Source of the DNA: a virus
IMG/VR virus record: IMGVR_UViG_3300020187_000041
Coordinates: 1-56,325 of that record
Reading direction: 5' to 3' (one strand)
DNA: 56,325 nt
Of this stretch, positions 3,107 through 22,703 are shown piece after piece; within the stretch, counting starts at the first letter, position 1, and every line of letters begins with the position of its first letter. A program made the translations under genes and the position numbers. Below the pieces are notes generated by a model, which did not search any database, was not told where the DNA came from, and worked only from the letters and a program-made list of their open reading frames with translations.

Positions 3107-4639
3107 TTAATCATCCGATGTCAAGACTTTAATGTCGTGGCATCTCTCAAACTCATATACATCATTTAAATCATTGACAATTGGTTGACCTTTAATATTT
3201 AATGATGTATTCACAAGCATAGAACAACCAGTCTTTTCTTTAAACTTAGACAACAATGTATATAACCCTGGATGCTGTTCATTGTTAACGGTCTGTACCC
3301 GTGAGGTCCCGTCTGCGTGTATGATTGCAGGGAAATCAAGCGGATACTTACACTTAGCAACAAATTGCATATAAGGTGAACTATTAATGTTTTCTGGCAT
3401 AATGAAGTAATCGTGTACATCTTCTTCTAGTATCATAGGTGCGAATGGTCTAAACTTTTGCCTACGTTTGATTTCATTCATTCTGTCCTTAATTGTATCT
3501 CCGCGTGGATCAGCAGTTAGAGTACGATTACCTAATGCACGTGGACCAAACTCTGCACGACCATTTGCAATGCCAATAATGTCACCATTAAGTAATGCAT
3601 CTAATGCTTTCTCTACTGGATAACTACCTTCTATATTATGTCCTAGATAAGGAGTTTCCCATTTAATTCTTGCATCGAAGAATTTTTGTGAAGCGCCGAT
3701 ACAACTACCAGCATCACCTGGATTTGGCATTATCCAAATATTTTTAAATCGTTCGGTTATTAAACTATTCGCACTACAATTAAGAGCACACCCACCCATC
3801 AATACTAAGTTAGTACTGAATGCCATCTTTTTAATATCATCTATAATTACAGATAACATTTGTGTGTATATTTCTTGTGTCGCTGCAGCAATATCATAAT
3901 GATCTTGTTCAGTTATTAATTCAGGTAAAAAATCTTTACACCCACGATGCAGATTCTTTTTTAGGTTGACCACATGGTAAAATTTACTACTATGATCATT
4001 TAATACTATTCCAAATTCATCATACATATGTTGAATTATAGTTTTATTATTAACTTCTCTATTAATATCGCCATACGCTGCCATACCCATAAGAATATAT
4101 TCATCTTCCTGCGGTTTTAATCCTAGTCTATCAGTCATTGCACTATAGAATAATCCGACACTGGCTGGATATGCTTGTGAATAATATTGCACAAGATTAT
4201 CATTTTTGCCACGCCATATGCTTAATGTTTCCAATTCACCTATGCTATCTATCACGAGAATAGCCGCATCATTGAATGGACTTGTAAAATATCCACTTGC
4301 AGCATGTGTATAATGGTGTGATTGATATACTATAGGAATATCTTTTAATTGTTCAAAGTTTTTTAAATAATTACCTGGCAATTCTTTTAAATCAAATGCA
4401 AGTGAATATTGTCCTGCAATCAACTGTCTCCATTTTTTAATAAGTGGCTTCTCATACCACGCTATTACATCAGGCTTACCATATGATAAGGCTTCTTGAA
4501 TTATTTCTGCATTCAAGTTAGGGTCATTTTTTATTTTAGAATAGCGTTCACTATGACTGGCAAAAAGAATTTTACCATCACAAATGACGCTGACCGCAGC
4601 ATCATGGTTTAACGCACCTGATATTCCTAGTATAATCAT
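3107..4639 (-). CDS. NodU/CmcH-family O-carbamoyltransferase
   Basis: Enzymes of this family move a carbamoyl group from carbamoyl phosphate through carbamoyl-AMP to a hydroxyl of a sugar or natural product. The N-terminal Kae1-like domain opens with ILGISGALNHDAA (His12, Asp13) and has the SER motif at 30-32. Metal-ligand histidines lie in QSHHYTHAA (His108, His109, His112), followed by VIDSIGE near 129-135. The C-terminal carbamoyltransferase domain carries RAEFGPRALGNRTL at about 357-370 and a C-terminal NTSLNIKGQPIV. The length of 510 residues is slightly short of the usual 550-600, but both domains appear complete. The ATG overlaps the TGA of a 37-residue gene. Neighbouring glycosyltransferase-like and methyltransferase-like genes suggest a glycan as acceptor; that is inference. 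Confidence 0.9.
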   Translation of the reverse strand: MIILGISGALNHDAAVSVICDGKILFASHSERYSKIKNDPNLNAEIIQEALSYGKPDVIAWYEKPLIKKWRQLIAGQYSLAFDLKELPGNYLKNFEQLKDIPIVYQSHHYTHAASGYFTSPFNDAAILVIDSIGELETLSIWRGKNDNLVQYYSQAYPASVGLFYSAMTDRLGLKPQEDEYILMGMAAYGDINREVNNKTIIQHMYDEFGIVLNDHSSKFYHVVNLKKNLHRGCKDFLPELITEQDHYDIAAATQEIYTQMLSVIIDDIKKMAFSTNLVLMGGCALNCSANSLITERFKNIWIMPNPGDAGSCIGASQKFFDARIKWETPYLGHNIEGSYPVEKALDALLNGDIIGIANGRAEFGPRALGNRTLTADPRGDTIKDRMNEIKRRQKFRPFAPMILEEDVHDYFIMPENINSSPYMQFVAKCKYPLDFPAIIHADGTSRVQTVNNEQHPGLYTLLSKFKEKTGCSMLVNTSLNIKGQPIVNDLNDVYEFERCHDIKVLTSDD

Positions 4640-6541: not shown

Positions 6542-7312
6542 ATGAACATTATGAATGCACACGACTTCGTAGATACCACACGTAATATCGATTTCGTAAA
6601 TGAAAAACTTTACGGAAAACAGTCTATATCAAAAGTTCAGTTAGTTGCTCTTGCTATCATGGCACAAAAGATTAACGGCGAATACGTTAAACGTGGCGGC
6701 AAGTCTGACTTTGTTGATATCTATGATCCCGAACTTGATGAAACGTTTCAACGCTTCGCAAAAGTTAAAGAAGCGAACCGCAATGTCATGGAAATTTTGG
6801 CAGAGAACAATTCTCTTATCACTATGGATGTCATGATAGAAGCACACGACATGATTAAAGGTCTCGAAATGGATTTTATGTTCAAAGTTCTCGGTGATAA
6901 TATGAACGATTTTGAAACCAGTATACATGAATTTCTAGCAGAGAATGATGATAATCTCAATGTTCGCTATCACATTGGTGTTGTTGCTTACATTCCAGAA
7001 TATGTAAAACGTGATGCTAATAAAAAGAAATTAGAAGAACGTTCAGTTGGTTCTGAATACATTGGAAGTGAAGGCGATAAAGTTACCATAGACATTGAGA
7101 TTATTTCTAAACGTCAGGCAACTGCTTGGGCTGGATGGAATGTTAATGCTATAACACCAGACGGTAATCGTGTTTCATTCTTTACTACAAAAGATGAATT
7201 ATCAGAAATGACAGGTGTTTTTAGTATTACTGCAAAAGTCAAAGATTGTAGCACAGTTTGGGGCAATTCAGATATCAAGGAGACCAGGTTGAATTATGTA
7301 AAAATATTATAA
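6542..7312 (+). CDS. Early protein with OB-fold-like C-terminal domain
   Basis: The 256-residue protein is the last gene of the small rightward operon. Residues 1-150 are largely helical, acidic and unrecognised. Residues about 168-256 look like a compact beta domain: SEYIGSEGDKVTIDIEIISK, then a WAGWNVNAITPDGNRVSFFT hairpin, then MTGVFSITAKVKDC and ETRLNYVKIL. This order (YxGxxGDK, aromatic strand, DGN turn, FxITAKVK, T-L) recurs in phage and archaeal proteins as an OB-fold-like nucleic-acid-binding module; that is recalled family knowledge, not a search result. The start is uncertain by three codons (a second ATG at 6551). Its end overlaps the end of the convergent membrane-protein gene. 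A nucleic-acid-binding early role is inferred. Confidence 0.65.
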   Translation: MNIMNAHDFVDTTRNIDFVNEKLYGKQSISKVQLVALAIMAQKINGEYVKRGGKSDFVDIYDPELDETFQRFAKVKEANRNVMEILAENNSLITMDVMIEAHDMIKGLEMDFMFKVLGDNMNDFETSIHEFLAENDDNLNVRYHIGVVAYIPEYVKRDANKKKLEERSVGSEYIGSEGDKVTIDIEIISKRQATAWAGWNVNAITPDGNRVSFFTTKDELSEMTGVFSITAKVKDCSTVWGNSDIKETRLNYVKIL

Positions 7313-7525
7313 GTAATATATCCATACTAATCCAGGTATTATAATAAAAAACTGTGGTAAAAAATTTAGTATAAGTGCTTTCTCATTTTGTTTCCAGCCT
7401 ACATATATCCAACCAGATGCACCCAACATCTGTAGAAAACTATTCCATGGTGTCCATCCTTGCACGTGAAATAGCATTGCGGCAAGTATTATGATTGCAC
7501 TGCCATATTTAATATAAGTAATCAA
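7307..7525 (-). CDS. Small two- to three-helix membrane protein
   Basis: The 72-residue product is hydrophobic almost throughout. Segment 1 covers about residues 4-22 (YIKYGSAIIILAAMLFHVQG), segment 2 about 28-45 (NSFLQMLGASGWIYVGWK) and segment 3 about 52-71 (LNFLPQFFIIIPGLVWIYYL). KQNEKA forms the only polar loop. The size and pattern resemble small cyanophage membrane proteins of the DUF6552 type; I recall this and have not checked it. The only start that keeps helix 1 is a TTG at 7525, one base after the TAG of the sulfotransferase-like gene, with GAGG 11 bases upstream. The 3' end overlaps the plus-strand gene. Its function is unknown. Confidence 0.6.
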   Translation of the reverse strand: MITYIKYGSAIIILAAMLFHVQGWTPWNSFLQMLGASGWIYVGWKQNEKALILNFLPQFFIIIPGLVWIYYL

Positions 7526-7526
7526 T

Positions 7527-8159
7527 CTATAACGCGCCTCTTTTACTACTTGCTAGTTTTATTAAATCATCTAGTTCAGTGTATTCTATATAATTCATAT
7601 ACTTCTTATTCTTGTCCTGAACAAGTATTTTTTCTATTTCTGCTATATTAATATTCTTTGGTATGTGTAATTGTTGTTCAATACTATTTACATATTTTAT
7701 ACCATAAAGATATAATAATTCTTGACTTACAAATATATGTTTCTTATCCATGAAAAAATCTAATTGTTCTAAAAATCTAGGAGTAGTGTGGTGACCACGA
7801 ACTCTAGTTTGTTGATGTTCTAATATATTACGGTCTCTACCAATAATCATATAAGTTACAGTATCAAATTTCTGTGTCGCATAATGGTGAAAGTTTTTAA
7901 AATCTGGTATCTTTGTTTCGCCATCAAATATATATGGTGCGCCCATACTGGTGTAATAATAGTCGTGTGTTGTGGTATCAAAGTCTAGTAATAGTTCTGC
8001 ATTTTCCCAACAATCTGCAAAGGGTTCCATGTCATGACCTTCCCAATATTTATGTTGTAGTGTTTTCCAAGCAAAAACGTTTTTATTACTACCAAATATC
8101 TTTGCATACAAATGATTACCACTGCCTTGTGGTCCTACTGCTATGACTAGTTGCTTCAT
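7527..8159 (-). CDS. P-loop sulfotransferase-like protein
   Basis: The 210-residue protein opens with a strand and P-loop-like turn, VIAVGPQGSGNHLYAKIF (residues 5-22). GPQGSGNHL is the usual form of the PAPS-binding loop in the phage sulfotransferase-like family, with GSGN in place of GKS. YMIIGRDRNILEHQQTRVRG in the middle fits the 3'-phosphate-binding strand and loop with Arg. The C-terminal KYMNYIEYTELDDL is helical. Family members may sulfate glycans, but many phage versions are uncharacterised and the donor is not proven. Its ATG overlaps the stop of the 2-oxoglutarate oxygenase gene by four bases, so the two are coupled. Acceptor unknown. Confidence 0.6.
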   Translation of the reverse strand: MKQLVIAVGPQGSGNHLYAKIFGSNKNVFAWKTLQHKYWEGHDMEPFADCWENAELLLDFDTTTHDYYYTSMGAPYIFDGETKIPDFKNFHHYATQKFDTVTYMIIGRDRNILEHQQTRVRGHHTTPRFLEQLDFFMDKKHIFVSQELLYLYGIKYVNSIEQQLHIPKNINIAEIEKILVQDKNKKYMNYIEYTELDDLIKLASSKRGAL

Positions 8160-8827
8160 ACATCTATCTTTAAGTCGTATGTACTGAATAATCTATGCAT
8201 TTCTGGGGTTGCTACACCCGTGACTAATAATGTAGAACGTGGGGTGCGTCCTGCATTTGCAGTACAATGAGGAGAGTTAAACCAATCAAAACTGTAAATC
8301 TCCCCGGCACGATATCCTGTATGAACAACATTACCATATTGTAAAAAGTGTCCAGGTTCCCAATCACCTAACATAATCATAAAACGATAAACTGTTGTAG
8401 GCTCTTTTTTATTCCATTTTTCTAATTTGTCTACATGTAAGTTCCATACTTGACCCGGCATTTGTACATGGACTCGGCGTTGTACATCTCTATCATCACC
8501 TGGTAATAGATGTAATGCATCAGTCATTGATTGAAATATTGGTTCTATCTGATAATCTAACTTAGTTAGTACCAAATCGGCAGGAGCACCAGTCTGTATC
8601 AAGTCTAATTCTTCTGCTTCAATATCTTCGCTACCGTTCGGACTGTCAATTGGATTACGTGTTCTCCAAGTAATGTCATTACTTTTTGCAATAGTACGTT
8701 CTAATGCTTCTTGCCAATCACCTTCAAATTTGCCGATATATCGCATGCCATCGTATGCTGGATCATGCTTAAATGGATCATAATGATAATTGTTTCTTGG
8801 CGATGTTTTTTCCCAATTGCTTTGCAT
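8156..8827 (-). CDS. 2-oxoglutarate/Fe(II)-dependent oxygenase
   Basis: The 223-residue product has the full facial triad of the cupin-fold dioxygenases. VWNLHVDKLEKW gives His131 and Asp133, DWFNSPHCTAN gives His187, and the 2-oxoglutarate-binding Arg197 lies in RTPRSTLLVTG. The spacing (HxD, about 54 residues, H, ten residues, R) is right. The strand MLGDWEPGHFLQYGN between them resembles aspartyl/asparaginyl beta-hydroxylase-like phage enzymes. It would hydroxylate a protein or small molecule using 2-oxoglutarate and oxygen. An AAGGAG site precedes the ATG. A late promoter and hairpin lie in the 56-base gap upstream, so it can be transcribed separately from tctC. Its substrate is unknown. 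A functional link to tricarboxylate or 2-oxoacid uptake is speculation. Confidence 0.85.
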   Translation of the reverse strand: MQSNWEKTSPRNNYHYDPFKHDPAYDGMRYIGKFEGDWQEALERTIAKSNDITWRTRNPIDSPNGSEDIEAEELDLIQTGAPADLVLTKLDYQIEPIFQSMTDALHLLPGDDRDVQRRVHVQMPGQVWNLHVDKLEKWNKKEPTTVYRFMIMLGDWEPGHFLQYGNVVHTGYRAGEIYSFDWFNSPHCTANAGRTPRSTLLVTGVATPEMHRLFSTYDLKIDV

Positions 8828-8883: not shown

Positions 8884-9948
8884 TTATTCTGTAGGAAATA
8901 AGTTTTCTTTCAATACTGAATTCAGACCCAGTGCTTCTTTATTAAAACGAACTAGGGTACGTAATGCATCTTCTGTGATAAATGTCATCAACGTATCACG
9001 CATCTGATTGCCACGCTCACCGATGAACCATTCATACTTACCATTCTTTGCTTCAATCGCAGCCATTGATTCTGGATCATTAGTCATTTTATTCATAGCA
9101 ACAACTAAACGGTCACGCAACTCTGGATTACCTTTGTTTACCCAAATTGCTTTCTGTAGACCATCACGAAATGACTTAACTAATACGTATGCATTATAGA
9201 ACTCACCTGATGGTTCAACACCATAACGTTCTTTAAACTGAATTTCAAATTGTGCACCTGGAAAGTTCGGGTCGTCAATATGCTTGCCTGTTGTAGGATC
9301 TAATAAACCGTGGTGAAACCATAGTTCTGCATTTTCATCTGGTGCAATATGTTTTTGATAAGTTGCCGGATTTTCACGTGAACCTGTTAAGTCGCCACGC
9401 TTAAATGCTAAACGTCTTTCGCCACCTGACATACCTTGTACCCAAGTTACGTTTTCACCGAAACATTCAATATATTCATCAAGTGATTTATCTGGTCCAC
9501 AAATCATCATTGCGATTGCAAATGCTTCTGGAACAGCACCTGACGTACCAGCAAACACTGGTTTATCCATATCTGCGCCTTTAACTTTACCCATAATAAT
9601 GTTCAAGTTCATAAGACCGATTGAGTCATACTCTGCATAATCGTAGTCCACATTCTCTTGTAGAAATGATACACCATTGCCACCATGTGTCACAACAATT
9701 GTATTTTCATCAAATCTTAGTTCATTATGGAATTTATTGATACCTGGAATATCTCGGGCGCCTGGAATATTTCGAATTGTAATACGCTCACCCAAATGTT
9801 TCTCTAGTTCTTTCATAATGATCTCAGTCCATACAGTGGTACCACCGCCAGGTTTTTGAGGGTTAACGACTGTAATATCCGCCGATACAGTTGATGCTAA
9901 TAGCATTGTTCCTGCAATTGCACTAACAATAATATTTTTAATTTTCAT
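8884..9948 (-). CDS. tctC: TctC-type periplasmic solute-binding protein
   Basis: TctC proteins are the periplasmic receptors of tripartite tricarboxylate transporters; they bind citrate or other carboxylates and deliver them to the TctA-TctB membrane pair. Residues 1-23 form a classic signal peptide (basic MKIKN, hydrophobic core, cleavage after VSA). The mature protein starts DITVVNPQKPGGGTTVW, matching the P-GGG-(T/S)D ligand loop of the family. The lobe layout follows: GINKFHN, TIVVTHGGNGVSF, KPVFAGTSGAVPEA, LVKSFRDGLQKAIW. At 354 residues it is longer than the usual 320-330. AGGAG precedes the ATG. It lies 35 bases downstream of tctA, in one operon. The ligand cannot be predicted. It should need export by the host Sec system. 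Confidence 0.85.
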   Translation of the reverse strand: MKIKNIIVSAIAGTMLLASTVSADITVVNPQKPGGGTTVWTEIIMKELEKHLGERITIRNIPGARDIPGINKFHNELRFDENTIVVTHGGNGVSFLQENVDYDYAEYDSIGLMNLNIIMGKVKGADMDKPVFAGTSGAVPEAFAIAMMICGPDKSLDEYIECFGENVTWVQGMSGGERRLAFKRGDLTGSRENPATYQKHIAPDENAELWFHHGLLDPTTGKHIDDPNFPGAQFEIQFKERYGVEPSGEFYNAYVLVKSFRDGLQKAIWVNKGNPELRDRLVVAMNKMTNDPESMAAIEAKNGKYEWFIGERGNQMRDTLMTFITEDALRTLVRFNKEALGLNSVLKENLFPTE

Positions 9949-9983
9949 CTTTTTTTCTCCTATAATTTTTAGATGATCGTTTT

Positions 9984-11477
9984 TTATACAAAATCAATTT
10001 TTGCTTTGTTGAAAAATAAGCCCCAAATTGCTGCAACTACTGTCAATGAGATAAACACTGCAGGCATTGGTCTGAATAATAATTCTTCCCATCCATAGCC
10101 AAATGATGTAAACTGAACATAAGTTGTTTCTAATCTGTAACTTAAAATAAATCCAATCAAGAAACTCACCCGACTAAATTTAAAATACTTCATGCCTAAT
10201 CCTAACATCATACAAATTGCCAACATAATATAATCGTCGATATAACCTGTATATTGTGTGCTACTCCATATCAATGAAGCGAGAATAGGCCAAAAATAAT
10301 ATTTAAATGGAATACTTGTAATATAAACCGCATATTTGATAAATGCATATGAAATAGGTAATATAATCATAAGACTCCACAAGTAACTGCTTAATAAAAC
10401 ATCAAAGAAACGCTGGTCTTCTAGTACACTAGGTGTGCCTAATTCTAGTCCAACATACATTAATAGTCCCATTACGATAACTTCAAACGGTGCTCCTGGT
10501 ATTCCGAACAATACAGTTGGAACATACGATGTTGCTTTTTGTGCATTATTCGCACCTTCACAACCTATAACGCCTCTAACATGTCCTTTGCCAACTGGTA
10601 TTTCATCGTCTTCTGTGCCTTTTTTTGAAACTGCAACTGTTTGGCTGTAAGCAAACCAGTCTGCTATATTTCCACCTATACCTGGAACAAGTCCAACAAA
10701 TCCACCGATAAGACCGCCACGCAATCCATCCCATTTCCATTTCCAAGTATCTTTGATGCCTTCTATTAACTGACCTTTAATAACTTGATTAGTTAATGTA
10801 ATTTTTTGTGCTTTCATTCTGTATGCACTTAATAGTTCTGGGAACGCCAAAAGTCCAGCCATTACAGGAATAATTTGTACTCCTGCTCCTAGATACTCCC
10901 AATCAAATGTCCATCTGTCTGCGGCTGTTTGGGGATCCATACCAATACGTCCAACAAGAATGCCAAGTATAAGTGCAATCAAACCTCTGAACCAGTACTT
11001 ACTAGAAACAAAAATAACACATGTCATAGCAAATATCAAGAACGAAAACATTTCTGCGGTACCAAAATATAGTACAATTTTTGTATACCATGGCAAGAAT
11101 AAGAATACTGCAAGTCCCCATATAAGACCATTAAGCCATGATGTTGAAATTGCAGCACTCAATGCCCTTGCTGCTTCGCCCCTACGTGACATTGGAAATC
11201 CATCTACCATAGTTGCAGCGGCACCACCGGCACCTGGTATGTTCATTACGATTCCACAGAAACTATCACCTATACTACTCGTAACAACAACTGCTGTTGT
11301 GAATACAACTAGCATATATGGATCTTGAAAATATGTCACGAATGAGTAAATAGCAATTAGACCGGTTGTTGCTCCGGCAACAGGAATCAAGCCCACGAAA
11401 AATCCGTAAGCGACACCTGCCATTAGTATGAGAAAATATTGGGCGTGCTCCCCCAAGAACTGTAGGATTACATCCAT
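9984..11477 (-). CDS. tctA: TctA-type tricarboxylate transporter large membrane subunit
   Basis: The 497-residue protein is of full family length (about 500) with about 12 hydrophobic segments. Both inverted-repeat signature regions are present. The first has GLIPVAGATTG at 29-39, then MNIPGAGG at 78-85 and VDGFPMSRRGEAARAL at 91-106. The second has GGFVGLVPGIGGNIADWFAY, then GKGHVRGVIGCEGANNAQKA, then FGIPGAPFEVIVMG. TctA carries out sodium-coupled carboxylate uptake with TctB and TctC. No TctB gene (about 150 residues, four helices) is visible between or beside the two genes. AAAGGATAAG precedes the ATG. A late promoter lies about 90 bases upstream. An intact reading frame over 1.5 kb implies selection for function. 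Confidence 0.92.
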   Translation of the reverse strand: MDVILQFLGEHAQYFLILMAGVAYGFFVGLIPVAGATTGLIAIYSFVTYFQDPYMLVVFTTAVVVTSSIGDSFCGIVMNIPGAGGAAATMVDGFPMSRRGEAARALSAAISTSWLNGLIWGLAVFLFLPWYTKIVLYFGTAEMFSFLIFAMTCVIFVSSKYWFRGLIALILGILVGRIGMDPQTAADRWTFDWEYLGAGVQIIPVMAGLLAFPELLSAYRMKAQKITLTNQVIKGQLIEGIKDTWKWKWDGLRGGLIGGFVGLVPGIGGNIADWFAYSQTVAVSKKGTEDDEIPVGKGHVRGVIGCEGANNAQKATSYVPTVLFGIPGAPFEVIVMGLLMYVGLELGTPSVLEDQRFFDVLLSSYLWSLMIILPISYAFIKYAVYITSIPFKYYFWPILASLIWSSTQYTGYIDDYIMLAICMMLGLGMKYFKFSRVSFLIGFILSYRLETTYVQFTSFGYGWEELLFRPMPAVFISLTVVAAIWGLFFNKAKIDFV

Positions 11478-11568: not shown

Positions 11569-11576
11569 TATTTATC
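11569..11576 (-). promoter_or_regulatory. T4-type late promoter for tctA-tctC
   Basis: GATAAATA on the minus strand matches the late box. It is the only promoter-like element in the 117-base gap between the methyltransferase gene stop (11595) and the tctA start (11477). It predicts late transcription of the transporter pair, apart from the upstream accessory operon. Confidence 0.6.
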
Positions 11577-11594: not shown

Positions 11595-12272
11595 TTATTT
11601 TTTACGTAATACGAAATAAAATCTATCGTTATCGTCTTGGCGCAATGTTAAGACATCACAGTTAAGATATTTTGCAGCATTAGATATAAAAATAGGATCC
11701 CAGTCATAAAAGTTAATCCATTTAGCCTCTGGTTTATCATGTTGTATGCCTGGATTAACTCTGAAATATAAGAAACCACCAGTTCTAACTATTTCTACTA
11801 CACTTTCAAGTTCTTTCAATATCTTATCACTACTACCGAAATTAATACTACCTAAACAAATAGCAACATCATATTTTTGATCTGTCTTGTAATCCAGTGT
11901 ATGAATATTAATATCCGCTCTATCATTATATGGATCAATACCAACTAAGTTTTTAATCTTTCCTTTAAACTCATTATATCCACATCCAATATCAATGACA
12001 TGTTCTGGACTCATACTATTGACTTCATCAATAATTGCAAGACCACTATACTTAAACTTCTTTGTTTCAGGTTGCCAAACTTTACTAAAATAATTACATA
12101 ATACTTCTCTGTCAATCTGTTCTGATAATGCATAAATTTCTGTATCTTCAATTTGCGACAGTTCTATGTTGAACACGCCATTAATTACCTGACAAAATGT
12201 ATGTGTATCTAGACGCAATCGAGGATTACTTTTTAAAATTCTATCTAATTCAGTTAATATTTTAAAGTTCAT
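11595..12272 (-). CDS. Class I SAM-dependent methyltransferase
   Basis: The 225-residue protein has a helical N-terminal region (residues 1-85) and a Rossmann methyltransferase core. Motif I is HVIDIGCGYNEFKG (91-104), with acidic motif II in LVGIDPYND. YDVAICLGSINFGS is the motif IV strand, and GGFLYFRVNP is the motif VI-like strand. The C-terminal strands LTLRQDD and RFYFVLRKK complete the sheet. Its ATG directly follows the stop of the P-loop protein gene (adjacent bases). It is the last gene of the large accessory operon. The second methyltransferase of the operon (12812-13423) has the same NSLHFGN/GSINFGS signature, so they are related. The substrate is unknown. Confidence 0.8.
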   Translation of the reverse strand: MNFKILTELDRILKSNPRLRLDTHTFCQVINGVFNIELSQIEDTEIYALSEQIDREVLCNYFSKVWQPETKKFKYSGLAIIDEVNSMSPEHVIDIGCGYNEFKGKIKNLVGIDPYNDRADINIHTLDYKTDQKYDVAICLGSINFGSSDKILKELESVVEIVRTGGFLYFRVNPGIQHDKPEAKWINFYDWDPIFISNAAKYLNCDVLTLRQDDNDRFYFVLRKK

Positions 12273-12815
12273 TTAATTGTTCAAACCATTTATATATGTT
12301 GTCACGAATATATCACTATGCTCTACGTGTTGATTCCATTGTAACATATGTTTCTGTGCAAAGTCAAGTATTAATTTATTCTGTTGTTTAATTTCTTTCT
12401 TCATGCCGTCAACATCAACATACCATTCATAGTTAGGATAAGTTATATTAAACCCACCTGCTTCTAGCCACCACTTTAAACTCGCATCATTTGGTCTGTA
12501 TACTAATTGTATATCAGCATGTGGATATTGTTCGATTATCTGATCAAAATAATAGGGCCATTCGTGACTCATTAATAACTTAATACCTGTACTATTAAAC
12601 GGTGCTAATAAGTTTTCTATACTAAGATCCACCGGAAACTCCATTCCTGTACCAAAGTAACTCTCACAGTGACCAGAAAAATCATTATGTTTATAAACTC
12701 TGTGAGGTGCTCTATCACTAGTGTCATATTTAGGATCTTGTTTTATCTCTCTGGCAATGCCACTCCACCGAGATCCAGGTACACCTGTAAAGAATATTAG
12801 TTTTGAATCATTCAT
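12273..12815 (-). CDS. P-loop (sulfotransferase/kinase-like) protein
   Basis: The 180-residue product starts LIFFTGVPGSRWSGIAREI. The strand and GVPGSRWSG loop have the shape of a P-loop, but the Walker lysine is replaced by Arg-Trp. This form is common in a phage protein family annotated as sulfotransferase-like. The middle strand DIQLVYRPNDASLKWWLEAGG has an Arg at the place of the 3'-phosphate-binding residue. Aromatic content is high (WYVDVDGM, HEWPYYFDQ). It overlaps the upstream methyltransferase stop by four bases and abuts the downstream methyltransferase. Flanking by two methyltransferases suggests a shared pathway. Group transfer or kinase activity is not proven. Confidence 0.5.
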   Translation of the reverse strand: MNDSKLIFFTGVPGSRWSGIAREIKQDPKYDTSDRAPHRVYKHNDFSGHCESYFGTGMEFPVDLSIENLLAPFNSTGIKLLMSHEWPYYFDQIIEQYPHADIQLVYRPNDASLKWWLEAGGFNITYPNYEWYVDVDGMKKEIKQQNKLILDFAQKHMLQWNQHVEHSDIFVTTYINGLNN

Positions 12816-13439: not shown

Positions 13440-14531
13440 TTAAAAAATAATACCATCTTCAGATTCAATTGATATAATATCCCAATTATCACCCAAATAA
13501 TGCGTTTCCGACATACGACTCACCGTTTCAATATTATTATTGACAATATTCGTTGGTTGCATACTTTTAATAGTAGTTAAAAATTCTTGATTTACGACTT
13601 TTCCTATCTGGTAGTTATTGAATATGTTTCTGTTTTGTAACTCAAAATGTTCAATCCAATGATTAAATCCAGTACTATTATAGAGATAATTATAATTATC
13701 ATTATAGTCTATTTCAAATGTTCCATCAATTATCATCATATTACTAATATCCCAAGCAGTAGGATCATCAAATTGAAAATATGCAGTTAGATAATCTTTT
13801 CCTAAAATCTTTTTAAGAGCATACACGTTATATTCAGAACCTTGAAATGCAAATTGTGAGAAGTCTGGTTGCACCATTTCTTCATAAAATTTCTCATGCC
13901 ATCCGCCATCTACCGTTTTGCCATCAATATCAAATACTAAACAACCATTGTTTCTATCAAGTTCATTTGCTCTGGAAGAACGTAGATATGCAGATTCGTA
14001 AAAATGTATATATGAATTTATTTTCTCTAACGCATTAAAAAATTCATCATTTTTATCATCCGATAATTGATAAAAATCTTCAAGTGTTGGATGATTTAGA
14101 ATAAAATCAGATATTTCATAATGTGTTACTCCATTTTTCTTCATATCGAAGATATCTTTTTGTAACTTTTTACTTAAATACGGAGTTTTATATTTCGTAA
14201 TCATGCTTGTTGTAAATCCACGATGTAAATAATTAGTCGTTTCCCATGACATACCAATGTAAGCATACCCTATCCATTTTCTGCCTGAAATTTTTTCTAT
14301 GGTACGTATTGCTGTATTGATTTGGTCAACGATCATCTTAGCATGTTCAGTATAATTGGGAGAATGGTCACCTTGCTGTAACAATATTGCATGGTCTCTT
14401 GTCCATCTGGCAATATGCCGATTATTAATAAAAGCACGATACCAAGAGTCCACAAATTCATTTTGTAGAAGTTCAATTTTAACAGACAAATGATTTTTAA
14501 ATTTTATGTTAATCCACTTTGGTGTTGTCAT
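13440..14531 (-). CDS. Accessory protein of unknown function (363 residues)
   Basis: No family is recognised. The sequence is well formed and aromatic, without signal peptide or membrane segments. An N-terminal IKFKNHLSVKIELLQNEFVDSW is followed by a helical stretch (HAKMIVDQINTAIRTIEKI). A central NGCLVFDIDGKTVDGGWHEKFYE may be a metal or ligand site. A C-terminal TAYFQFDDPTAWDISNMMII segment leads to acidic tyrosine-rich strands. It overlaps the stop of the large B12-type radical SAM gene by four bases (ATGA), so it is made together with that enzyme. A role as carrier, scaffold or substrate-handling partner of the radical SAM proteins is possible but unsupported by motif. Confidence 0.6.
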   Translation of the reverse strand: MTTPKWINIKFKNHLSVKIELLQNEFVDSWYRAFINNRHIARWTRDHAILLQQGDHSPNYTEHAKMIVDQINTAIRTIEKISGRKWIGYAYIGMSWETTNYLHRGFTTSMITKYKTPYLSKKLQKDIFDMKKNGVTHYEISDFILNHPTLEDFYQLSDDKNDEFFNALEKINSYIHFYESAYLRSSRANELDRNNGCLVFDIDGKTVDGGWHEKFYEEMVQPDFSQFAFQGSEYNVYALKKILGKDYLTAYFQFDDPTAWDISNMMIIDGTFEIDYNDNYNYLYNSTGFNHWIEHFELQNRNIFNNYQIGKVVNQEFLTTIKSMQPTNIVNNNIETVSRMSETHYLGDNWDIISIESEDGIIF

Positions 14532-16570
14532 TTTTTTACGATTCCATTAAAATCATTTATATTACATTCCAATGTATATACTTGTGTATCAAAACTCATA
14601 TCTTGCCGACGCACTTCATCGTTTAATACTCTTGGATCCTCTCTAGTAGTTTCATGTTTAAATCTATGCTCAACTTTAAAAGTAAGTTGTTCATTTTCAT
14701 CAACCCGCATATTAATAGTTCCCCAATATGGACTTACAATAAATCCTCCAAACTCGGACAGGTCGTCATCTAAATCATGATGCATATTTAATTCAAATGC
14801 ACCATATGTTTTATATAGAATCCAAGCAAATGGCAAATATTCATTTGCTAAACTTGCACTAAATTGTAATTTCTCAGTGTCGCCGCTGAAATAGTCAAAT
14901 GATTGTCCAGTTTCTTGTGGAACATAATCTACAAAATCATCATTGGTTAATTGTTTAAAATCAAAAAATTGTGTTAGACCAGGTCGATACTGTGCATTTT
15001 TTACTGTTCCATCTGCGATATTCACAGCAAGATATAACCAAATCTGCATAAACTTTAATCTAATAAATCTATGTAAAATAGTATTAGCATAATCTTCTGT
15101 ATACCAATTACTCATAAATGTATTATCCCATGGTTTGTCTATCCATTGTAATTTATAATCTGCCCAATTAACATTCAGGTCACTAAATGGCGCATCTCCA
15201 CATGTCATTCCAGGACTAATTGCAAACATCCATTTTCTTGTGTTATGTAAAACATGTAAACTATGCAGAAATTCGGCTGGACCTTCAGTAGGAAATCCTA
15301 CAACCCAGTTAACGTGATTCTTCATACCAACTTTAGCACCATCACGTAGATTATTTTCAATTTCCCAAACTTTTACCTTTTTCTTCATATCGTCTAAAAC
15401 TTTTTCACTGCCACTTTCGACTCCGAAACTTAGACTCATACATCCACTATCAGCAATCTTCTGAAATAGTTCTAAATCCATCCGTCCATCACAACGTGCG
15501 TAACTATTCCACCTGATATCAAGTTTTTTATCAATAATCATGTTTACGAGATTTTTGAATTCTTTAAATGCACCATTCGCAAGACTATCTACAAACCAGA
15601 ACCGACGAGTACCATATGTATCTATTTGATATTGCATTTCATCAATGACACGATCACTTGTTCTAAATCTATATTTCCAAAACCAGGTTTCAGCACAGAA
15701 ACTGCACTTAGCAACACAGCCTCTGCTAGTCTCAATACTTGCTCCTTCCGGATGTTGATATAGATTTAAGTCATAATCACTGTAATCTGGAAATGGCAAT
15801 TGATTTAAATCTAGTTTACTCTGAAAACCACCAAATGTAACCATCTCTTTATTCATTGGAAGTTCTTTATAGTTTTCTAATAATGTTAATAGTTCTTGTT
15901 CACCTTCGCCCGTAACACGATAATCAATAATTCCGGATTTAAAATCAAGTGTTGAATAAATTAGATCCTCGAACCAATCATTAAACGCTTCTGGTCCACC
16001 TACTACAATCTTAGTTGATGGACTGCGTTCTTTAATTTTTTCAATCATGTACATTGTACTCAACAGGTTGGTCAAGTATACACTAAATCCAACTATGTCA
16101 TCGCCTTGTTCAATAATTCTATCAATGCATTCATCTAATTTAGGTTTAATAATTGGAAAAACTTCATCATCATAAACAGGGCGCTCCCATGCGAAATAAT
16201 ACCTACTTTCCCAATAATCTTTATCATGATTTTCTTTACAATAATGATAGCACTCAACGTTTAAGTCATAGACATTGACACGATATCCATAATGTCTAAG
16301 TAAACCACTGAGTCTTGCAATATTATATGGAGGAAAAATAATTCCCCATGCTGGTGCAATAATCATGGAAATTCCATCATTACTTTCATATGGGTTTACT
16401 TCAGTGTAATAATTATATCCTCGTGGGTGTACTTTATTTTGTACTACTGGTATTCTTTCAGTATCACCCAGATGACTTTCAGCATGATCTATTCGATCTT
16501 GCTCAATAAGTTTTTTAATAACCTCATCACGATCTTCGCTTTCAAAGATTATATCTTTATTTTTAGCCAT
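14528..16570 (-). CDS. B12-binding-type radical SAM enzyme
   Basis: The 680-residue protein has the layout of BchE-like radical SAM proteins. A cobalamin-binding-like Rossmann domain spans about residues 60-230, with IIAPAWGIIFPPYNIARLSG, LRHYGYRVNVYDLNV, DIVGFSVYLTNL and STKIVVGGPEAF. The classic DxHxxG is not evident, so cobalamin binding is uncertain. The radical SAM core follows with ETSRGCVAKCSFCAETWFW; Cys285, Cys289 and Cys292 bind the 4Fe-4S cluster. FGVESGSEKVL and VNWVVGFPTEGPAEF are typical core strands. The C-terminal 200 residues are unassigned. Such enzymes methylate unactivated carbons or form rings. The start overlaps the upstream gene by 22 bases. Substrate unknown. Confidence 0.85.
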   Translation of the reverse strand: MAKNKDIIFESEDRDEVIKKLIEQDRIDHAESHLGDTERIPVVQNKVHPRGYNYYTEVNPYESNDGISMIIAPAWGIIFPPYNIARLSGLLRHYGYRVNVYDLNVECYHYCKENHDKDYWESRYYFAWERPVYDDEVFPIIKPKLDECIDRIIEQGDDIVGFSVYLTNLLSTMYMIEKIKERSPSTKIVVGGPEAFNDWFEDLIYSTLDFKSGIIDYRVTGEGEQELLTLLENYKELPMNKEMVTFGGFQSKLDLNQLPFPDYSDYDLNLYQHPEGASIETSRGCVAKCSFCAETWFWKYRFRTSDRVIDEMQYQIDTYGTRRFWFVDSLANGAFKEFKNLVNMIIDKKLDIRWNSYARCDGRMDLELFQKIADSGCMSLSFGVESGSEKVLDDMKKKVKVWEIENNLRDGAKVGMKNHVNWVVGFPTEGPAEFLHSLHVLHNTRKWMFAISPGMTCGDAPFSDLNVNWADYKLQWIDKPWDNTFMSNWYTEDYANTILHRFIRLKFMQIWLYLAVNIADGTVKNAQYRPGLTQFFDFKQLTNDDFVDYVPQETGQSFDYFSGDTEKLQFSASLANEYLPFAWILYKTYGAFELNMHHDLDDDLSEFGGFIVSPYWGTINMRVDENEQLTFKVEHRFKHETTREDPRVLNDEVRRQDMSFDTQVYTLECNINDFNGIVKK

Positions 16571-17793
16571 TGGTCTCTATACTCCGCTAATTTAGGATGT
16601 ACCAATCCTATATCTTGATTACGTATCTGATCATATTTAACTGTTCGTTTTGCCCAGTTAAGTCTACGGGCATCTAGGTCATCAAATTTACTCCGAAGTC
16701 TGAATACCGTTGCATCCATTCTGCATTGTGTTTTTCTATACTCAGGTAGGGTTTCAACTCGCTGTTCGATCTGATCAGCAATTTTCATTCTATCATCGTG
16801 TGGAATTATGTCTATGCTCATATCTTCTGGCCAATTCACATGATTAAAAACTAATATATTATTGCTATGTTCTTCATGTTCTTTCCAAAAGTCAATAATA
16901 TTAGGTAAATCAAAAACATTATAGGCTTGAACTGTACTCAATATATTTACTGTGCTTACACTACTAATATTCCTGTACATATGATAATTAGTTTCAATAG
17001 TATTCCACTCGCTCGGATGACGTATATAATCATTTGTATATCCTATGCCATCAATGCTATATTGAATATCAACACTATCAAACTTTTCTAACCAGTTAAT
17101 TACTTTACCTTTTCCTCTGGTACCATTGGTTGTTATATCTAAATGTAAATGTGTATTACCAGAATCAACGCACCATTTAAGAAATTTAATAACACCAGGC
17201 ATGAATAATGGTTCGCCGCCTGCCAACTTTATGGTTTTTATATGAGGAATAAGTGCTTGTAAACTTTCATACATAGTTGGATTATTAATCCACTCTTGTA
17301 ATTCAAACCAACTTTCGCCAGTTACTTCTTCTAATTCTGGATGCTTTTTGTGTTCATCTGCAAACGTACTACTAACTGCAACAAAGCACATTCTACATCC
17401 TAGATTACAAAATCTACCAGGACGCAAATCTAACCACAATGGTTTTTCTGTTGTATTACCAGTCTCTACTGAAATATCCCAATCATGCGTTGGCGCTTTA
17501 AAGTAATTATTATGTGCCCATCTATCACTGCCGCCTCCTTTTTCATCTAATGCATAGCACATATGACATGCCTTAATTGGTTTTCCATCAATCATATCTT
17601 GTCTAATTTTTTGATATGCAGGACTATTCCAAATTTCTTCAAATGTTTTATCAGTTAAATCTTCAAATAAACTTTCTCTCCAGTCGGCAACACAGCATAA
17701 TTTTGCAGCGTTATCTGTACTCAAATGCATATGCGTAAATGGCAGCACACAAAAGTGTTTATTATCTTTTACCTGTTGTTGCCAATTTGACAT
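16549..17793 (-). CDS. Radical SAM enzyme with N-terminal Cys cluster (twitch/SPASM type)
   Basis: Residues about 13-95 form an auxiliary region with FCVLPFTHMHLSTDNAAKLCC (Cys15, then the CC pair), EEIWNSPAYQKIRQDM and CHMCYALDEKG. This is the twitch/SPASM signature that often precedes the core in phage members. The core has GRFCNLGCRMCF, with Cys129, Cys133 and Cys136 as cluster ligands. TIKLAGGEPLFMPGV is the SAM-binding GGEP motif. LDITTNGTRG and DIQYSIDGIGYTNDYIRHPS are canonical strands. The 414-residue length fits. It overlaps both neighbours by about 22-32 bases. Its upstream neighbour has the same architecture with an extra N-terminal domain. Auxiliary clusters in this family are used for peptide or protein modification; the target here is unknown. 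Confidence 0.85.
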   Translation of the reverse strand: MSNWQQQVKDNKHFCVLPFTHMHLSTDNAAKLCCVADWRESLFEDLTDKTFEEIWNSPAYQKIRQDMIDGKPIKACHMCYALDEKGGGSDRWAHNNYFKAPTHDWDISVETGNTTEKPLWLDLRPGRFCNLGCRMCFVAVSSTFADEHKKHPELEEVTGESWFELQEWINNPTMYESLQALIPHIKTIKLAGGEPLFMPGVIKFLKWCVDSGNTHLHLDITTNGTRGKGKVINWLEKFDSVDIQYSIDGIGYTNDYIRHPSEWNTIETNYHMYRNISSVSTVNILSTVQAYNVFDLPNIIDFWKEHEEHSNNILVFNHVNWPEDMSIDIIPHDDRMKIADQIEQRVETLPEYRKTQCRMDATVFRLRSKFDDLDARRLNWAKRTVKYDQIRNQDIGLVHPKLAEYRDQWLKIKI

Positions 17794-19441
17794 CTTTTTT
17801 CCTCATTTCCTTAGCAGTACAAAACTGAACCATTTTATATATATCTTCCAAACTTTCTTTCCAATTTTCTTTTCTTATTTCATCTAATTTCTTTCCTGAA
17901 GCGAAAAATGTTTTCCATTGTGATGGGTCATCTTCTACTGAATTCATATGTGTTAATACTGCTTCAAGACGGGTCTCTGTAAGACTTAACCATGCGTTAT
18001 CATCCGGCCATTTCTTTCTAATATCAACATAAAATTTACGATAACGATTTGTGATATATGATTTCATTGATTTAGGAATATTTTGAGTGTTTAAATAATC
18101 TGGTCCATATAAGTTATGAACAATGATATTACTATCGATGGTATTCCAGTTTTGTTCACGCATCCACCATTGCATATCTAACAAATGTAACACATTCATA
18201 ATACTGACTGTCATTGTTACGCTTGCTTTAAGATTTGTAAATTCATTATTGTCAATACGTTTCATATTCTTATAAGCAGTATTCCATTTTCCAGGATATC
18301 TGATATACTCAAAATGTTCATATATACCATCAATGCTCATTCCCAAATTAACTTCCTTAAATTTCTTCCACTGTTTAAATATAGCACCTGGTACACCAGC
18401 CATATTAGTATTGTAGTCTAAAATTAAATCTTTGGCATATCCATTATCTATCGTATACTGCAGTAACTCTCTATGTGTATGATTTATAGTAGGTTCTCCG
18501 CCAGTAAAATAAAATCTTTTTATATTTGAAATTTCATTTTTTATATTTGAAACTAAGTCAGTTTTGTCAAACCATTCAAATGGAGAATCTTTAACAATTG
18601 CAGAACCGTTTTCATCTGTTTCAATAGTAACATCTCCTATTCCACGATTAAAAAATGTATTCTTACCTGTAAACTTCTCCCAATCTTTATACCATAAATT
18701 ACTATCTGTTGGTCCACAACTACGACATGCTAAGTTACACTTATTACCAAATCTTAGATCCCAATGTTCAATAGGAAAATCTTCATGATTTATAGAACCA
18801 TCTTCTGCAGTATTCAAAATTGCATTATCAAAAGTTTGATTAAATGCTTGATTGGTCCAAGTTCGTCTACTACCGATACCATTATCTTCCTCATCCCAAC
18901 ATAACTTGCATATCTCCGAACGTTGCCCACTAAGCATTTCTTTTCTTAACTTTTTCCATGCTGTGGAATTTCTATGTTCCGATATGTTATCAGTTGTCGT
19001 AAGCGCAGTGCCGTCATCTTTAAAGACAGTGCCATATGCCTCTTCACCATCAAAGCCTTGATTATTAATCATCTGACAACACATTCTGACTGTGCCATTT
19101 GCATTTGTACTAACATGATTCCATGGCACTGCACAGAATGACTTTCTTCTTCCATCATCTTTCTTCGCAATCATCACTGATCGCATAGCATGTAGTTCAT
19201 CTACAGTGTAATCAAATTTAACCGATATAGATTTAATCAATTTGTCATCTATATGTGTGGCAATTAATGTTCCTAAAACAACTGACTTATCTAAATCATG
19301 TTCAACAACGCTCTCTAACACATCCTTGGGACACTCTGGATCTTGAACCATATCAATTCTCTGTTCAGATGTTCTAAATACTGACAAGTCAAATTTATTA
19401 TCAGTATCAATTTCCTCATATTTTAATCCATCATCATTCAT
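17762..19441 (-). CDS. Radical SAM enzyme with N-terminal extension (twitch/SPASM type)
   Basis: The 559-residue protein starts with about 95 residues of acidic helical sequence not found in its neighbour (SEQRIDMVQDPECPKDVLES and on). The Cys-rich auxiliary region follows: FCAVPWNHVSTNANGTVRMCC, WKKLRKEMLSGQRSEICKLC. The core has FGNKCNLACRSCGP with Cys235, Cys239 and Cys242. RFYFTGGEPTINHTH is the GGEP motif. VNLGMSIDGIYEHFEYIRYP matches the substrate-side strand of its 414-residue neighbour (same SIDG...IR(H/Y)P), so the two are paralogues. It overlaps the next gene's start by 32 bases and the upstream gene's end by 8. Two related enzymes made together may act as a pair on one substrate; this is inference. 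Confidence 0.85.
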   Translation of the reverse strand: MNDDGLKYEEIDTDNKFDLSVFRTSEQRIDMVQDPECPKDVLESVVEHDLDKSVVLGTLIATHIDDKLIKSISVKFDYTVDELHAMRSVMIAKKDDGRRKSFCAVPWNHVSTNANGTVRMCCQMINNQGFDGEEAYGTVFKDDGTALTTTDNISEHRNSTAWKKLRKEMLSGQRSEICKLCWDEEDNGIGSRRTWTNQAFNQTFDNAILNTAEDGSINHEDFPIEHWDLRFGNKCNLACRSCGPTDSNLWYKDWEKFTGKNTFFNRGIGDVTIETDENGSAIVKDSPFEWFDKTDLVSNIKNEISNIKRFYFTGGEPTINHTHRELLQYTIDNGYAKDLILDYNTNMAGVPGAIFKQWKKFKEVNLGMSIDGIYEHFEYIRYPGKWNTAYKNMKRIDNNEFTNLKASVTMTVSIMNVLHLLDMQWWMREQNWNTIDSNIIVHNLYGPDYLNTQNIPKSMKSYITNRYRKFYVDIRKKWPDDNAWLSLTETRLEAVLTHMNSVEDDPSQWKTFFASGKKLDEIRKENWKESLEDIYKMVQFCTAKEMRKKDVKLATTGKR

Positions 19442-20327
19442 TTGGCTGTCCTAATTTATTATTATTTTCTATCCAACGATTCGTTATGCCAATCGCTTTA
19501 TCAGTGTCCAATTTTGGTACTATTTTTTTTATTTTTTGCCAGAATATGGTAGAATCTTTATCTAAGTTATCAGAATCAACAACATGTAAATTCTTAAAAG
19601 TTCTTACATACTTTGGTAAAAAAGTTATGTATGTATTTATTAAAGATTCTTTATGGTCTTCTTTAAGGACATTTATGTCACTGGTGTGCTTCAATCGTAT
19701 GTTTTTATTTTTAACAATCGATGAGTGATGTGTGTCATATGAAACAGGATTTTTATAATTATTAGATTCTAACAAATCATTTAATAGTGCATAAAGTTCA
19801 TGTCTCCAAACCCAATCAAATTTTTTTGTTTCATCTATCATAAATTGTTGTTGTTTTTCTGACAGTGTAGTAGAAATTGTTGAGTTTATAAAATCAACAG
19901 TAATAGGACAATCTACTTTTACCGCTAACTTTTTTATCGCTAGATCGGCAAAATAGTCTATTGAATCTTTTTTAGGAAATGCTAAGTCAATATAAATTAT
20001 CGTAATATCTGGTAAATATCTTTTATAAAATTCTATAGAATTATTGCTTGGATGGTCTTTTACAATAATTCGTTTTTTAATAGAAACGAAATCACCCTTG
20101 TATCTTGTTTCAATACCATTCTCAAATTTAGTTATATCTTCTACTAAATCCATATATCGTAACGCACATATTGAATGATATTGATTCACATTTTTATTTA
20201 CCCACGTGTATATGTCTTCAAATTGATCACAGCATGTACTAAGTGTATGAGCAATGTGTTCGCCACCAAGACCAGCAGGATACACTATCAGTATTGGATG
20301 CGCATTAATAAAATCATTATGATTCAT
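19434..20327 (-). CDS. Degenerate P-loop protein of unknown function (297 residues)
   Basis: The N-terminus reads ILIVYPAGLGGEHIAHTLS (about 12-30). The strand-loop-helix shape resembles the loop of phage sulfotransferase-like proteins, but GGEH replaces the Walker GKS/T, so nucleotide binding is doubtful. RIIVKDHPSNNSIEFYKR and ITIIYIDLAFPKKDSIDYF fit further strands of such a fold. The rest is helical and Lys-rich (FDWVWRHELYALLNDLLES). Its ATG shares one base with the stop of the 464-residue radical SAM gene (TAATG), and it ends eight bases inside the next radical SAM gene. It is therefore embedded in the radical SAM gene series and may act with it. Function unknown. Confidence 0.55.
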   Translation of the reverse strand: MNHNDFINAHPILIVYPAGLGGEHIAHTLSTCCDQFEDIYTWVNKNVNQYHSICALRYMDLVEDITKFENGIETRYKGDFVSIKKRIIVKDHPSNNSIEFYKRYLPDITIIYIDLAFPKKDSIDYFADLAIKKLAVKVDCPITVDFINSTISTTLSEKQQQFMIDETKKFDWVWRHELYALLNDLLESNNYKNPVSYDTHHSSIVKNKNIRLKHTSDINVLKEDHKESLINTYITFLPKYVRTFKNLHVVDSDNLDKDSTIFWQKIKKIVPKLDTDKAIGITNRWIENNNKLGQPNE

Positions 20328-21706
20328 TATTGTTCCTTGAAAAATTCTATTTCATTATCACTGTAATTTACAAGAGATTCTGCATCATTGATGTCACGAA
20401 TAGGCACTAAACTAAGTGAGCCTTTCATTCTTCCATTTGCTCCAGTTGTATTCCATTCTGGAATTTCTGTAATTCTATCTTTGAGTTGTTGTGCACGATC
20501 AAGAAATCCTGGTGGGGTCATTAGTTTTATTTCTAACCATAAGTCATCATCTATAATATCATGGTGTTTCATTATTATTTTACAGTTATCTAAAAATCTA
20601 TCTTCATTACCGCGATACAAATCCATACTTGCAAAATGTGCACTCATATTAACACTATTTATGTATTGTGTTGCTTCACTCCAGAATTTTGTACTTCGAC
20701 TACCATTTGTAGTTACCAATATCCATTGATTTCGGGACTTTAAATATTTTAAAATGTCAATGAATTGTGGATGCATGGTAGGTTCACCTCCACCAAAATT
20801 CCATCTGATTTGTTCGCCATTACTCCAATTATCTATAATCATATCGATAGTATTAATAACAGATTCAAACGATGGAAACTTTTCAGTATTACTATGAACT
20901 GCCGGCCAACAATAGTCACATGCATAATTACATCGTCTTCCAATGTCCCACAAGATTTGATATGGAATAGGAAAGTTCATTTCTACTCCAACACTTTCAT
21001 CTATATTATCAGTGATATAATTCTTACCGCCACGTTTAGTGCCATCATATTGATTATGAGTCACGTCCAGTAACTTCATATGTTCTACGGTTTTTGCTTT
21101 ACTTAAAATTACATCCGCACCGCAGCCACAACTCTTAAAAGGACAAACTGTATAATTTTCAGGTATGTCAATACCTTCACGAATATTGCCTAATAATCCC
21201 CAATTTTTTGGTATGTCATCTAATGTACTTTCCCATTTCCATGCACTTGCAGTTGTATCAATATTATCTGTTTGAATGTTCTTTCCTAAATTCTTAAAAA
21301 AAGTTTCTTCTGCTTCTTTCAACGCATCTTGTAGTTTAATATGTTGTTCGCATGTTTCCCAGCCGTTCTTAGGCAACGGCCAGCCACCTATAGTATTTTC
21401 ATTATACCATTCAATATGCGGATAAGAACCGAATATTCTTTCACGTTCAACCCTCCAGCCTTCTACAGTTGTATCATGATGTGCAGTACTATTTCTATGA
21501 CTACTGGCACAGTTACCATTCCATATATTACCATCGTAATCTATATAAAGTCCACGCACTCCTGCACTACACTGCCATCCCTTCCATTTGTTATGTTCTC
21601 TTGCAATAGCCTCATCCACACTCATTCTAATAAACTTGCCATTCGTATCATACACACGTAGTTGTTTATTATCTAATGGGATCCGAGGATCTGATTTAAT
21701 AGGCAT
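20327..21706 (-). CDS. Radical SAM enzyme with auxiliary Cys domain before the core
   Basis: An auxiliary region comes first: KWKGWQCSAGVRGLYIDYDG, then NGNCASSHRN, later NYTVCPFKSCGCGADVILSK. The radical SAM core follows with RRCNYACDYCWPAV (Cys259, Cys263 and Cys266 with the start chosen here) and WNFGGGEPTMHPQF. ILVTTNGSRSTKFW and SVNMSAHFASMD are core strands. In the upstream radical SAM gene the same auxiliary unit stands after the core, so the domain order is exchanged. I prefer the ATG at 21706 over one at 21721 because TGAGG lies at the right distance and the upstream one has no ribosome-binding site. It overlaps the preceding gene by 11 bases. Auxiliary cysteines suggest extra clusters. 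Substrate unknown. Confidence 0.82.
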   Translation of the reverse strand: MPIKSDPRIPLDNKQLRVYDTNGKFIRMSVDEAIAREHNKWKGWQCSAGVRGLYIDYDGNIWNGNCASSHRNSTAHHDTTVEGWRVERERIFGSYPHIEWYNENTIGGWPLPKNGWETCEQHIKLQDALKEAEETFFKNLGKNIQTDNIDTTASAWKWESTLDDIPKNWGLLGNIREGIDIPENYTVCPFKSCGCGADVILSKAKTVEHMKLLDVTHNQYDGTKRGGKNYITDNIDESVGVEMNFPIPYQILWDIGRRCNYACDYCWPAVHSNTEKFPSFESVINTIDMIIDNWSNGEQIRWNFGGGEPTMHPQFIDILKYLKSRNQWILVTTNGSRSTKFWSEATQYINSVNMSAHFASMDLYRGNEDRFLDNCKIIMKHHDIIDDDLWLEIKLMTPPGFLDRAQQLKDRITEIPEWNTTGANGRMKGSLSLVPIRDINDAESLVNYSDNEIEFFKEQ

Positions 21707-22703
21707 CTTCCAAAACCTCATATCTATTTTTAGGAAGTACTTTTTTACTCATAATGTCAAAGTTACAATGACACATACTTTTTGTACACATTACAGGTTT
21801 AGTAGGCCATTTAATAGATTCAGGATATTTCATATTTCCAAGTATTCCGCCAACTCTACACCATCCTATCATAACACTGCCATCGAAATCTACAACAATT
21901 TGTTCAACACCACTCCAACACAACCAACCTTTCCAGTTATTTGTCTTATCGTTAATAAAACGATGAGCACTACTATTTTGTTTCATGTTATTGACATCAT
22001 CATGCATATCCATACTACCACGATAAATTTTCCATTTCTTATCATGCTGTATTTTATTACCTAATCCCCACCATTGATTGTCAATATATTCAATCTGTTC
22101 TGGAGTATAATCATATAATGTTTCACCAAAATCAATGATTAGTGGCTGTAATGCAAGTGATATATTTGGAATGTCTATTACACTTTCAGCCACCTTTTGA
22201 CATCTTGGCCATATCTCTGGGTCGTAATGCATCATAACATTTACATGTGTTCTACATTGTTGACTCATTATTTTTACAACTTCGATGAAATGCTCTGCAT
22301 CGCCTTCTTCTGGATGATATGAAAGACATACATGGTCAAATTTTGTTTTATTCTTTTCCCACCAGCGAATCGTTCTACTACTATTGCTAATGAATCCTAT
22401 ATCATGACCAATTTCTTTGATGTACTCTGCACATTTAATAAAATCTTTCCAGAGTGTTACTTCTCCACCTGTAAATTCAAAATATACAGTTCTAGGATGA
22501 TAATGAGCAATCGTAGAATCTATGAATTTCTTTACAACATCAAAGTCATTCCATCCAAAACTGCCGTCATTTAGAATACTTGGACAATAGGAACATGTGA
22601 AATTGCACATATTTCCTAAATTCCAATTAACCACAACCCAGTCTTTGGCTTCATCGTGGTGATGATCAAGTCTATTATAAAATTCCTGCGGTCCGAGGGG
22701 CAT
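21696..22703 (-). CDS. Radical SAM enzyme with auxiliary Cys domain after the core
   Basis: The core starts close to the N-terminus: NMCNFTCSYCPSIL with Cys33, Cys37 and Cys40 as 4Fe-4S ligands. VYFEFTGGEVTLWKDF follows, with GGEV in place of GGEP. IGFISNSSRTIRWW and HVCLSYHPEEGD are core strands. The C-terminal part carries the auxiliary unit NWKGWLCWSGVEQIVVDFDG, then GWCRVGGILGN, then VMCTKSMCHCNFDI. This resembles SPASM-type cluster domains. The 335 residues look complete. AAGGATTAATAC precedes the ATG and lies inside the end of the small coiled-coil gene (stop at 22707), so translation is coupled. It forms a divergent pair with the downstream radical SAM gene. The acceptor is unknown. 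Confidence 0.82.
   Translation of the reverse strand: MPLGPQEFYNRLDHHHDEAKDWVVVNWNLGNMCNFTCSYCPSILNDGSFGWNDFDVVKKFIDSTIAHYHPRTVYFEFTGGEVTLWKDFIKCAEYIKEIGHDIGFISNSSRTIRWWEKNKTKFDHVCLSYHPEEGDAEHFIEVVKIMSQQCRTHVNVMMHYDPEIWPRCQKVAESVIDIPNISLALQPLIIDFGETLYDYTPEQIEYIDNQWWGLGNKIQHDKKWKIYRGSMDMHDDVNNMKQNSSAHRFINDKTNNWKGWLCWSGVEQIVVDFDGSVMIGWCRVGGILGNMKYPESIKWPTKPVMCTKSMCHCNFDIMSKKVLPKNRYEVLEDAY

Follow-up and report, generated by a model that had tools for sequence, protein, structure and literature searches.

A phage-borne TctA–TctC pair without TctB, probably a two-component uptake system

Genes for a receptor and a permease of the tripartite tricarboxylate transporter (TTT) family are carried by a large marine T4-like phage without the small subunit TctB, and the TctAC family to which they belong is essentially confined to phages. 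With moderate confidence, we propose that the pair forms a virus-specific uptake system of two components, made late in infection, in which a periplasmic receptor would serve an ion-driven permease independently of TctB. The window, that is the whole stretch of DNA analysed here, is the virus record IMGVR_UViG_3300020187_000041 of 56,325 bases, a phage fragment. An earlier note, made from the letters of this DNA alone, had described tctA and tctC as phage-borne and intact, and we indeed recovered both as complete open reading frames on the minus strand, 35 bases apart (Table 1). Identical copies of both genes (100% identity) are found in a second record of 120.8 kb (IMGVR_UViG_2747842453_000002, L002).

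Table 1. Features in the window around the tctA–tctC pair and the late sigma factor gene.
Feature	Position	Strand	Basis or remark
DUF6552 protein, 72 aa, hydrophobic	7307..7525	-	Pfam PF20189, E 6.1e-8
Second small sulfotransferase-like protein	7527..8159	-	Sequence pattern only, no Pfam match
2-oxoglutarate/Fe(II) oxygenase-like protein, downstream of tctC	8156..8827	-	HxD...H...R
tctC-like periplasmic solute receptor, 354 aa, signal-peptide-like N terminus	8884..9948	-	AlphaFold fold match
tctA-like permease, 497 aa, without C-terminal TctB half	9984..11477	-	Pfam TctA
Late-promoter-like box GATAAATA	11569..11576	-	99 nt upstream of tctA start codon
SAM-dependent methyltransferase, upstream of tctA	11595..12272	-	Weak Pfam Methyltransf_23; profile matches TehB-type
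Small sulfotransferase-like P-loop protein	12273..12815	-	Family matches Sulfotransfer_3, best E 6.6e-4
T4-type late sigma factor (gp55-like) gene	52984-53874		

Other phage-type genes in the window encode an SbcD-like nuclease, a head maturation protease and a baseplate hub. Since the closest late sigma proteins among GenBank phages belong to the Pseudomonas jumbo phage PA5oct group (49% identity), the phage of the window is probably a jumbo phage itself; the same match was considered as a pointer to the host and rejected, as 49% identity names no host. The window also holds a gene for a Nol-like carbamoyltransferase (3107-4639; PHROG 1601, E 1.2e-100) and, in the phage late region, a run of radical SAM-like genes (14528-22703), one with a B12-binding domain and one with a SPASM domain.

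The receptor is too diverged to be recognized by Pfam. It has no match in Pfam, PHROG or NCBIfam, it stays below the cut-off of the TctC model PF03401, and only 4 of 37 relatives match that model weakly (best E 6.2e-5). A profile built from the 37 homologues retrieves BugD with E 2.5e-5. The AlphaFold model of the protein (pLDDT 93.7) matches eleven TctC/Bug structures with Z 18.8-21.4, the next family reaching Z 13.7, and the best of these matches are Bug27, TphC, the terephthalate-binding protein, BugD, AdpC and MatC. Judged by its predicted fold, the protein is thus a true TctC. These structural homologues bind diverse acids, and hence we claim no substrate. The permease is more easily assigned, with a full-length match to Pfam PF01970 (E 1.5e-88; 297.7 bits against a curated cut-off of 28.9). 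Residues G21, G25, G29, P32, P81-G82, D92-G93, G262, P265-G266, G325 and P327, among others, are invariant in phage TctAs and also conserved in bacterial TctA. Its AlphaFold model (pLDDT 85.8) has no significant match among PDB structures and is uninformative on the TctA fold; the mechanism of TctA is therefore argued by analogy below.

The pair is widespread in viruses and seldom found in cells. In IMG/VR we found 142 related TctA loci and 47 TctC loci; when the best 80 of the TctA loci were kept and merged with the TctC loci, 106 loci had both genes, lying no more than 150 nt apart in 95 of them. Phage-type TctC was found in 3 of 84,980 prokaryote species genomes, in a scan that used two short peptide patterns and may miss diverged members. 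The first of these three carriers is a Pelagibacter MAG, in which the contig is phage-like and the order TctA-TctC-sulfotransferase-like-2OG-methyltransferase matches that of phages. The second is Marine bacterium B5-7, where TctA-TctC and related enzymes lie on a bacterial contig, and the third is an Omnitrophota MAG with methyltransferases flanking TctAC. When about 1,040 genomes were searched with a profile, these three carriers alone were close (E 1e-139 or better), all others giving E 1e-23 or worse. Among GenBank phages we found only distant TctAs (≤36% identity), in records that are unannotated or of bacterial appearance, and no TctC, the TctC of B5-7 (L126) as query likewise retrieving nothing; phage isolates therefore give neither host nor phenotype. 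On the B5-7 contig (L126:6536-11354) the pair is accompanied by a sulfotransferase-like gene, a methyltransferase and a hydroxylase-like gene, and the phage cassette may have come from this one or, conversely, have given rise to it.

The absence of TctB, which the earlier note had pointed out together with a proposal to search metagenomes for further pairs, holds across the family. The Pfam model PF07331 has no match in any of 46 phage records, namely the window, the 120.8-kb record with the identical genes and 44 others of 28 to 383 kb, most of them fragments; a tctB gene elsewhere in the genome, which would have contradicted the note, is thus found in neither of the first two. Moreover, a TctB-like profile run against 1478 open reading frames neighbouring TctAC retrieved nothing (best E 0.11). 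The same Pfam search works in bacteria: in B5-7 it finds TctB adjoining or fused to three ordinary TctAs and not to the phage-like one, and in the Pelagibacter MAG beside an ordinary TctA. In the Omnitrophota MAG the phage-type TctA is the sole TctA, and no TctB was detected in the contigs examined of this possibly incomplete genome. Several candidates for a hidden or substitute small subunit were rejected. Long gaps between tctA and tctC hold outer-membrane barrel-like, rubredoxin-like or sulfotransferase-like proteins or unrelated enzymes; DUF6552 proteins occur near TctAC in a minority of loci only; and other small multi-helix proteins near TctAC form no recurring cluster.

The relatives of phage TctA suggest how the small subunit disappeared. 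Its nearest ordinary bacterial relatives are TctAs of 640-720 aa, whose C-terminal part of 130-154 aa resembles TctB, as seen by hmmsearch against a fused TctB recognized by Pfam (E 4.4e-9) and by hhalign (probability 86%, E 5e-6). Phage TctAs, of 473-512 aa, have no such extension, and all phage, B5-7 and Omnitrophota TctAs end at a common column of the alignment, just before it. In the TctA tree, whose root is arbitrary, the phage clade joins beside the long fused TctAs on a long stem, and the simplest history is hence that phage TctA would have lost an ancestral fused TctB half.

These relations bear on a possibility raised by the earlier note, namely a mixed transporter in which phage TctA and TctC use the TctB of the host, so that the host TTT is redirected to a substrate chosen by the phage. 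Such hosts can carry ordinary TctCBA, as the TctB beside an ordinary TctA in the Pelagibacter MAG illustrates, and TctB is poorly conserved. However, phage TctAs are nearest to TctAs with a fused TctB-like half, not to those with a free TctB, and lack exactly that half, which weakens the idea of borrowing; the Omnitrophota MAG, although perhaps incomplete, points in the same direction. We therefore regard a mixed transporter as unlikely.

Enzyme genes recur around the pair. Among about 107 phage loci, a relative of the methyltransferase lies within a few kilobases of TctAC in about 100, the sulfotransferase-like family (the product of 12273..12815 having no PDB match) is near in 75, and a 2OG oxygenase in 48, all families being broad single-linkage clusters; relatives of the second sulfotransferase-like protein occur in 19 TctAC loci. 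The oxygenase-like protein has no sequence match in Pfam or PDB, and H131, D133, H187 and R197, the iron triad and the 2OG-binding arginine, are invariant in 17 homologues. With these frequencies, the special link between transporter and oxygenase on which the earlier note had speculated does not stand out from the other neighbours.

A broader version of this link is that the transported solute is a precursor, which the neighbouring methyltransferase, sulfotransferase-like and 2OG oxygenase proteins would consume in modifying either a small molecule or the surface glycans of phage or host. The recurrence of the first two families is in its favour, as are the occurrence of both enzyme types beside TctA-TctC on the bacterial contig L126 and a second TctC of a 383-kb phage record (that of L031). 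This protein (L220:6196-7158) is canonical (PF03401, E 1.9e-23), has no TctA beside it, and its gene overlaps by 4 nt with a sulfotransferase-like gene of the kind neighbouring TctAC. However, enzymes of these kinds are frequently encoded in the late regions of large phages anyway, and a common hot spot for insertion may account for the link; moreover, the families are broad and suggest neither a pathway nor a substrate. As the main explanation of the pair, precursor supply has in our judgement a low probability.

Another kind of neighbour is found in seven loci of one clade (L029, L032, L033, L035, L036, L040 and L046), where a protein of 185-196 aa with a signal sequence is encoded between tctA and tctC. 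Two of three sequences examined match porins or outer-membrane barrels and one has no match. A barrel-like gene at this position favours uptake across both membranes.

Both genes are kept by selection, as the earlier note had concluded from their intact frames: among close phage pairs, which are not independent of each other, median dN/dS is 0.068 for TctA (135 pairs) and 0.060 for TctC (126 pairs). This bears on roles outside transport, in which TctC or TctA would act as a surface or periplasmic decoy, as a block to superinfection or as a factor in DNA entry. A TctA-only protein of the archaeon Methanococcus maripaludis is essential for DNA uptake rather than serving acid uptake (PMC10133366), and TctA alone may thus do other things. 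However, receptor and permease are kept together under strong selection, and TctC retains a ligand-binding fold that a decoy or block would not need; a non-transport role is accordingly very improbable.

T4-type Gp23 capsid genes are present on contigs of all three phage TctA clades, which identifies the cassette as phage DNA. In the records of L028 and L037 (G018, G023) the Gp23 matches are short pieces in small open frames, which suggests that the capsid gene is interrupted or very diverged there. Although single IMG/VR contigs can be chimeric, we found no other support for the misassembly of a host operon into a phage contig, and this reading, a contamination that the earlier note had kept in mind, can be set aside almost entirely, since the pair recurs with phage neighbours on dozens of independent contigs, several with Gp23, and the few cellular copies of TctC include one on a phage contig.

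Transcription of the pair is likely to be late. The earlier note had seen a late box upstream of tctA and suggested expression when virions assemble; the site is real and late expression likely, and only the letters need care, as the box reads GATAAATA, one mismatch from the T4 late box TATAAATA. Of the six GATAAATA sites in the window, four are intergenic and precede a start codon by 29-99 nt, where their overall frequency would predict about 0.2, and ATAAATA is the top enriched 7-mer upstream of genes (6 of its 15 occurrences in the window). The exact T4 box is strongly depleted, with 1 found and 16 expected. These sites upstream of genes, together with the late sigma gene, make late transcription of tctA and tctC likely in the phage of the window. 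Among relatives, a late box lies within 150 nt of tctA in 13 of 77 distinct upstream regions, and promoters may hence usually lie further up the operon.

The two components have not always travelled together. A single TctA clade, which includes that of the window, is paired with TctCs that branch at three different points of the TctC tree, and constraining these TctCs into one group was rejected (AU p 0.006, a value somewhat optimistic because the group was picked after the first trees had been seen). On the evidence of these trees, phages have re-paired TctA with TctCs of different lineages, which fits a receptor that serves as a swappable specificity module. A bolder proposal, which we hold to be rather doubtful, is that a virus-only lineage dropped the small subunit and swaps receptors, so that the pair is an exchangeable module for one specific solute used by phage modification enzymes and not by general metabolism.

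According to the two-component model that we prefer, a T4-type late promoter would probably drive tctAC late in infection, and TctC would be exported into the host periplasm and bind a small solute there, either an organic acid or a comparable anionic or zwitterionic compound. By analogy with known transporters, TctC would then pass this solute to phage TctA in the inner membrane for import by symport without TctB; in one clade the solute probably enters through an outer-membrane barrel that the phage itself encodes. The benefit may be that the infected cell is fed or that a phage modification pathway is supplied. Most archaea have a TctA and no TctB (PMC5898192; PMC5812351), which gives the model a precedent; TRAP transporters, by contrast, cannot do without DctQ, their equivalent of the small subunit (PMC5812351).

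Auxiliary transporters of phages are known, and a complete receptor and permease pair that is essentially virus-confined is unusual among them. The pair offers a way to test whether TctB is needed by TctA at all and to ask which solute is so limiting for large marine phages that they bring a high-affinity uptake system of their own. In addition, the viral TctCs are compact soluble receptors, the ligands of which can be screened directly. Our literature search, of incomplete coverage, found no description of the receptor–permease pair, its missing TctB, its spread or the swapping of receptors. A tctA domain has been reported on SUP05 viral contigs alongside a 2OG-Fe(II) oxygenase (PMC4164917), and tricarboxylate-transport genes beside a nitric oxide reductase gene on a phage contig from an OMZ (PMC8115048); in the passages concerned these are single mentions, which describe neither TctC pairing nor missing TctB nor a family.

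Compared with TctCBA of Salmonella and relatives (TC 2.A.80), the phage system has the same permease family, a receptor of TctC fold and adjacent genes, but it lacks TctB, has the gene order A-C, is carried by phages and, in the window, has a TctC too diverged for PF03401. The bacterial systems of TctC with fused TctAB (e.g. L168-L182) are the nearest ordinary relatives of both phage proteins; their order is C-A and their TctAs are of the long kind, whereas phage TctA is without the TctB-like half. The virus-encoded ammonium transporter amtB with the downstream porin ompL (PMC8115048) is alike in being a phage-borne nutrient transporter beside an outer-membrane porin, and differs in transporter family and substrate. 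The stand-alone TctA of archaea (arCOG04469) resembles phage TctA in occurring without TctB; however, archaeal TctA is mostly without TctC too (PMC5898192), whereas phage TctA comes with its receptor.
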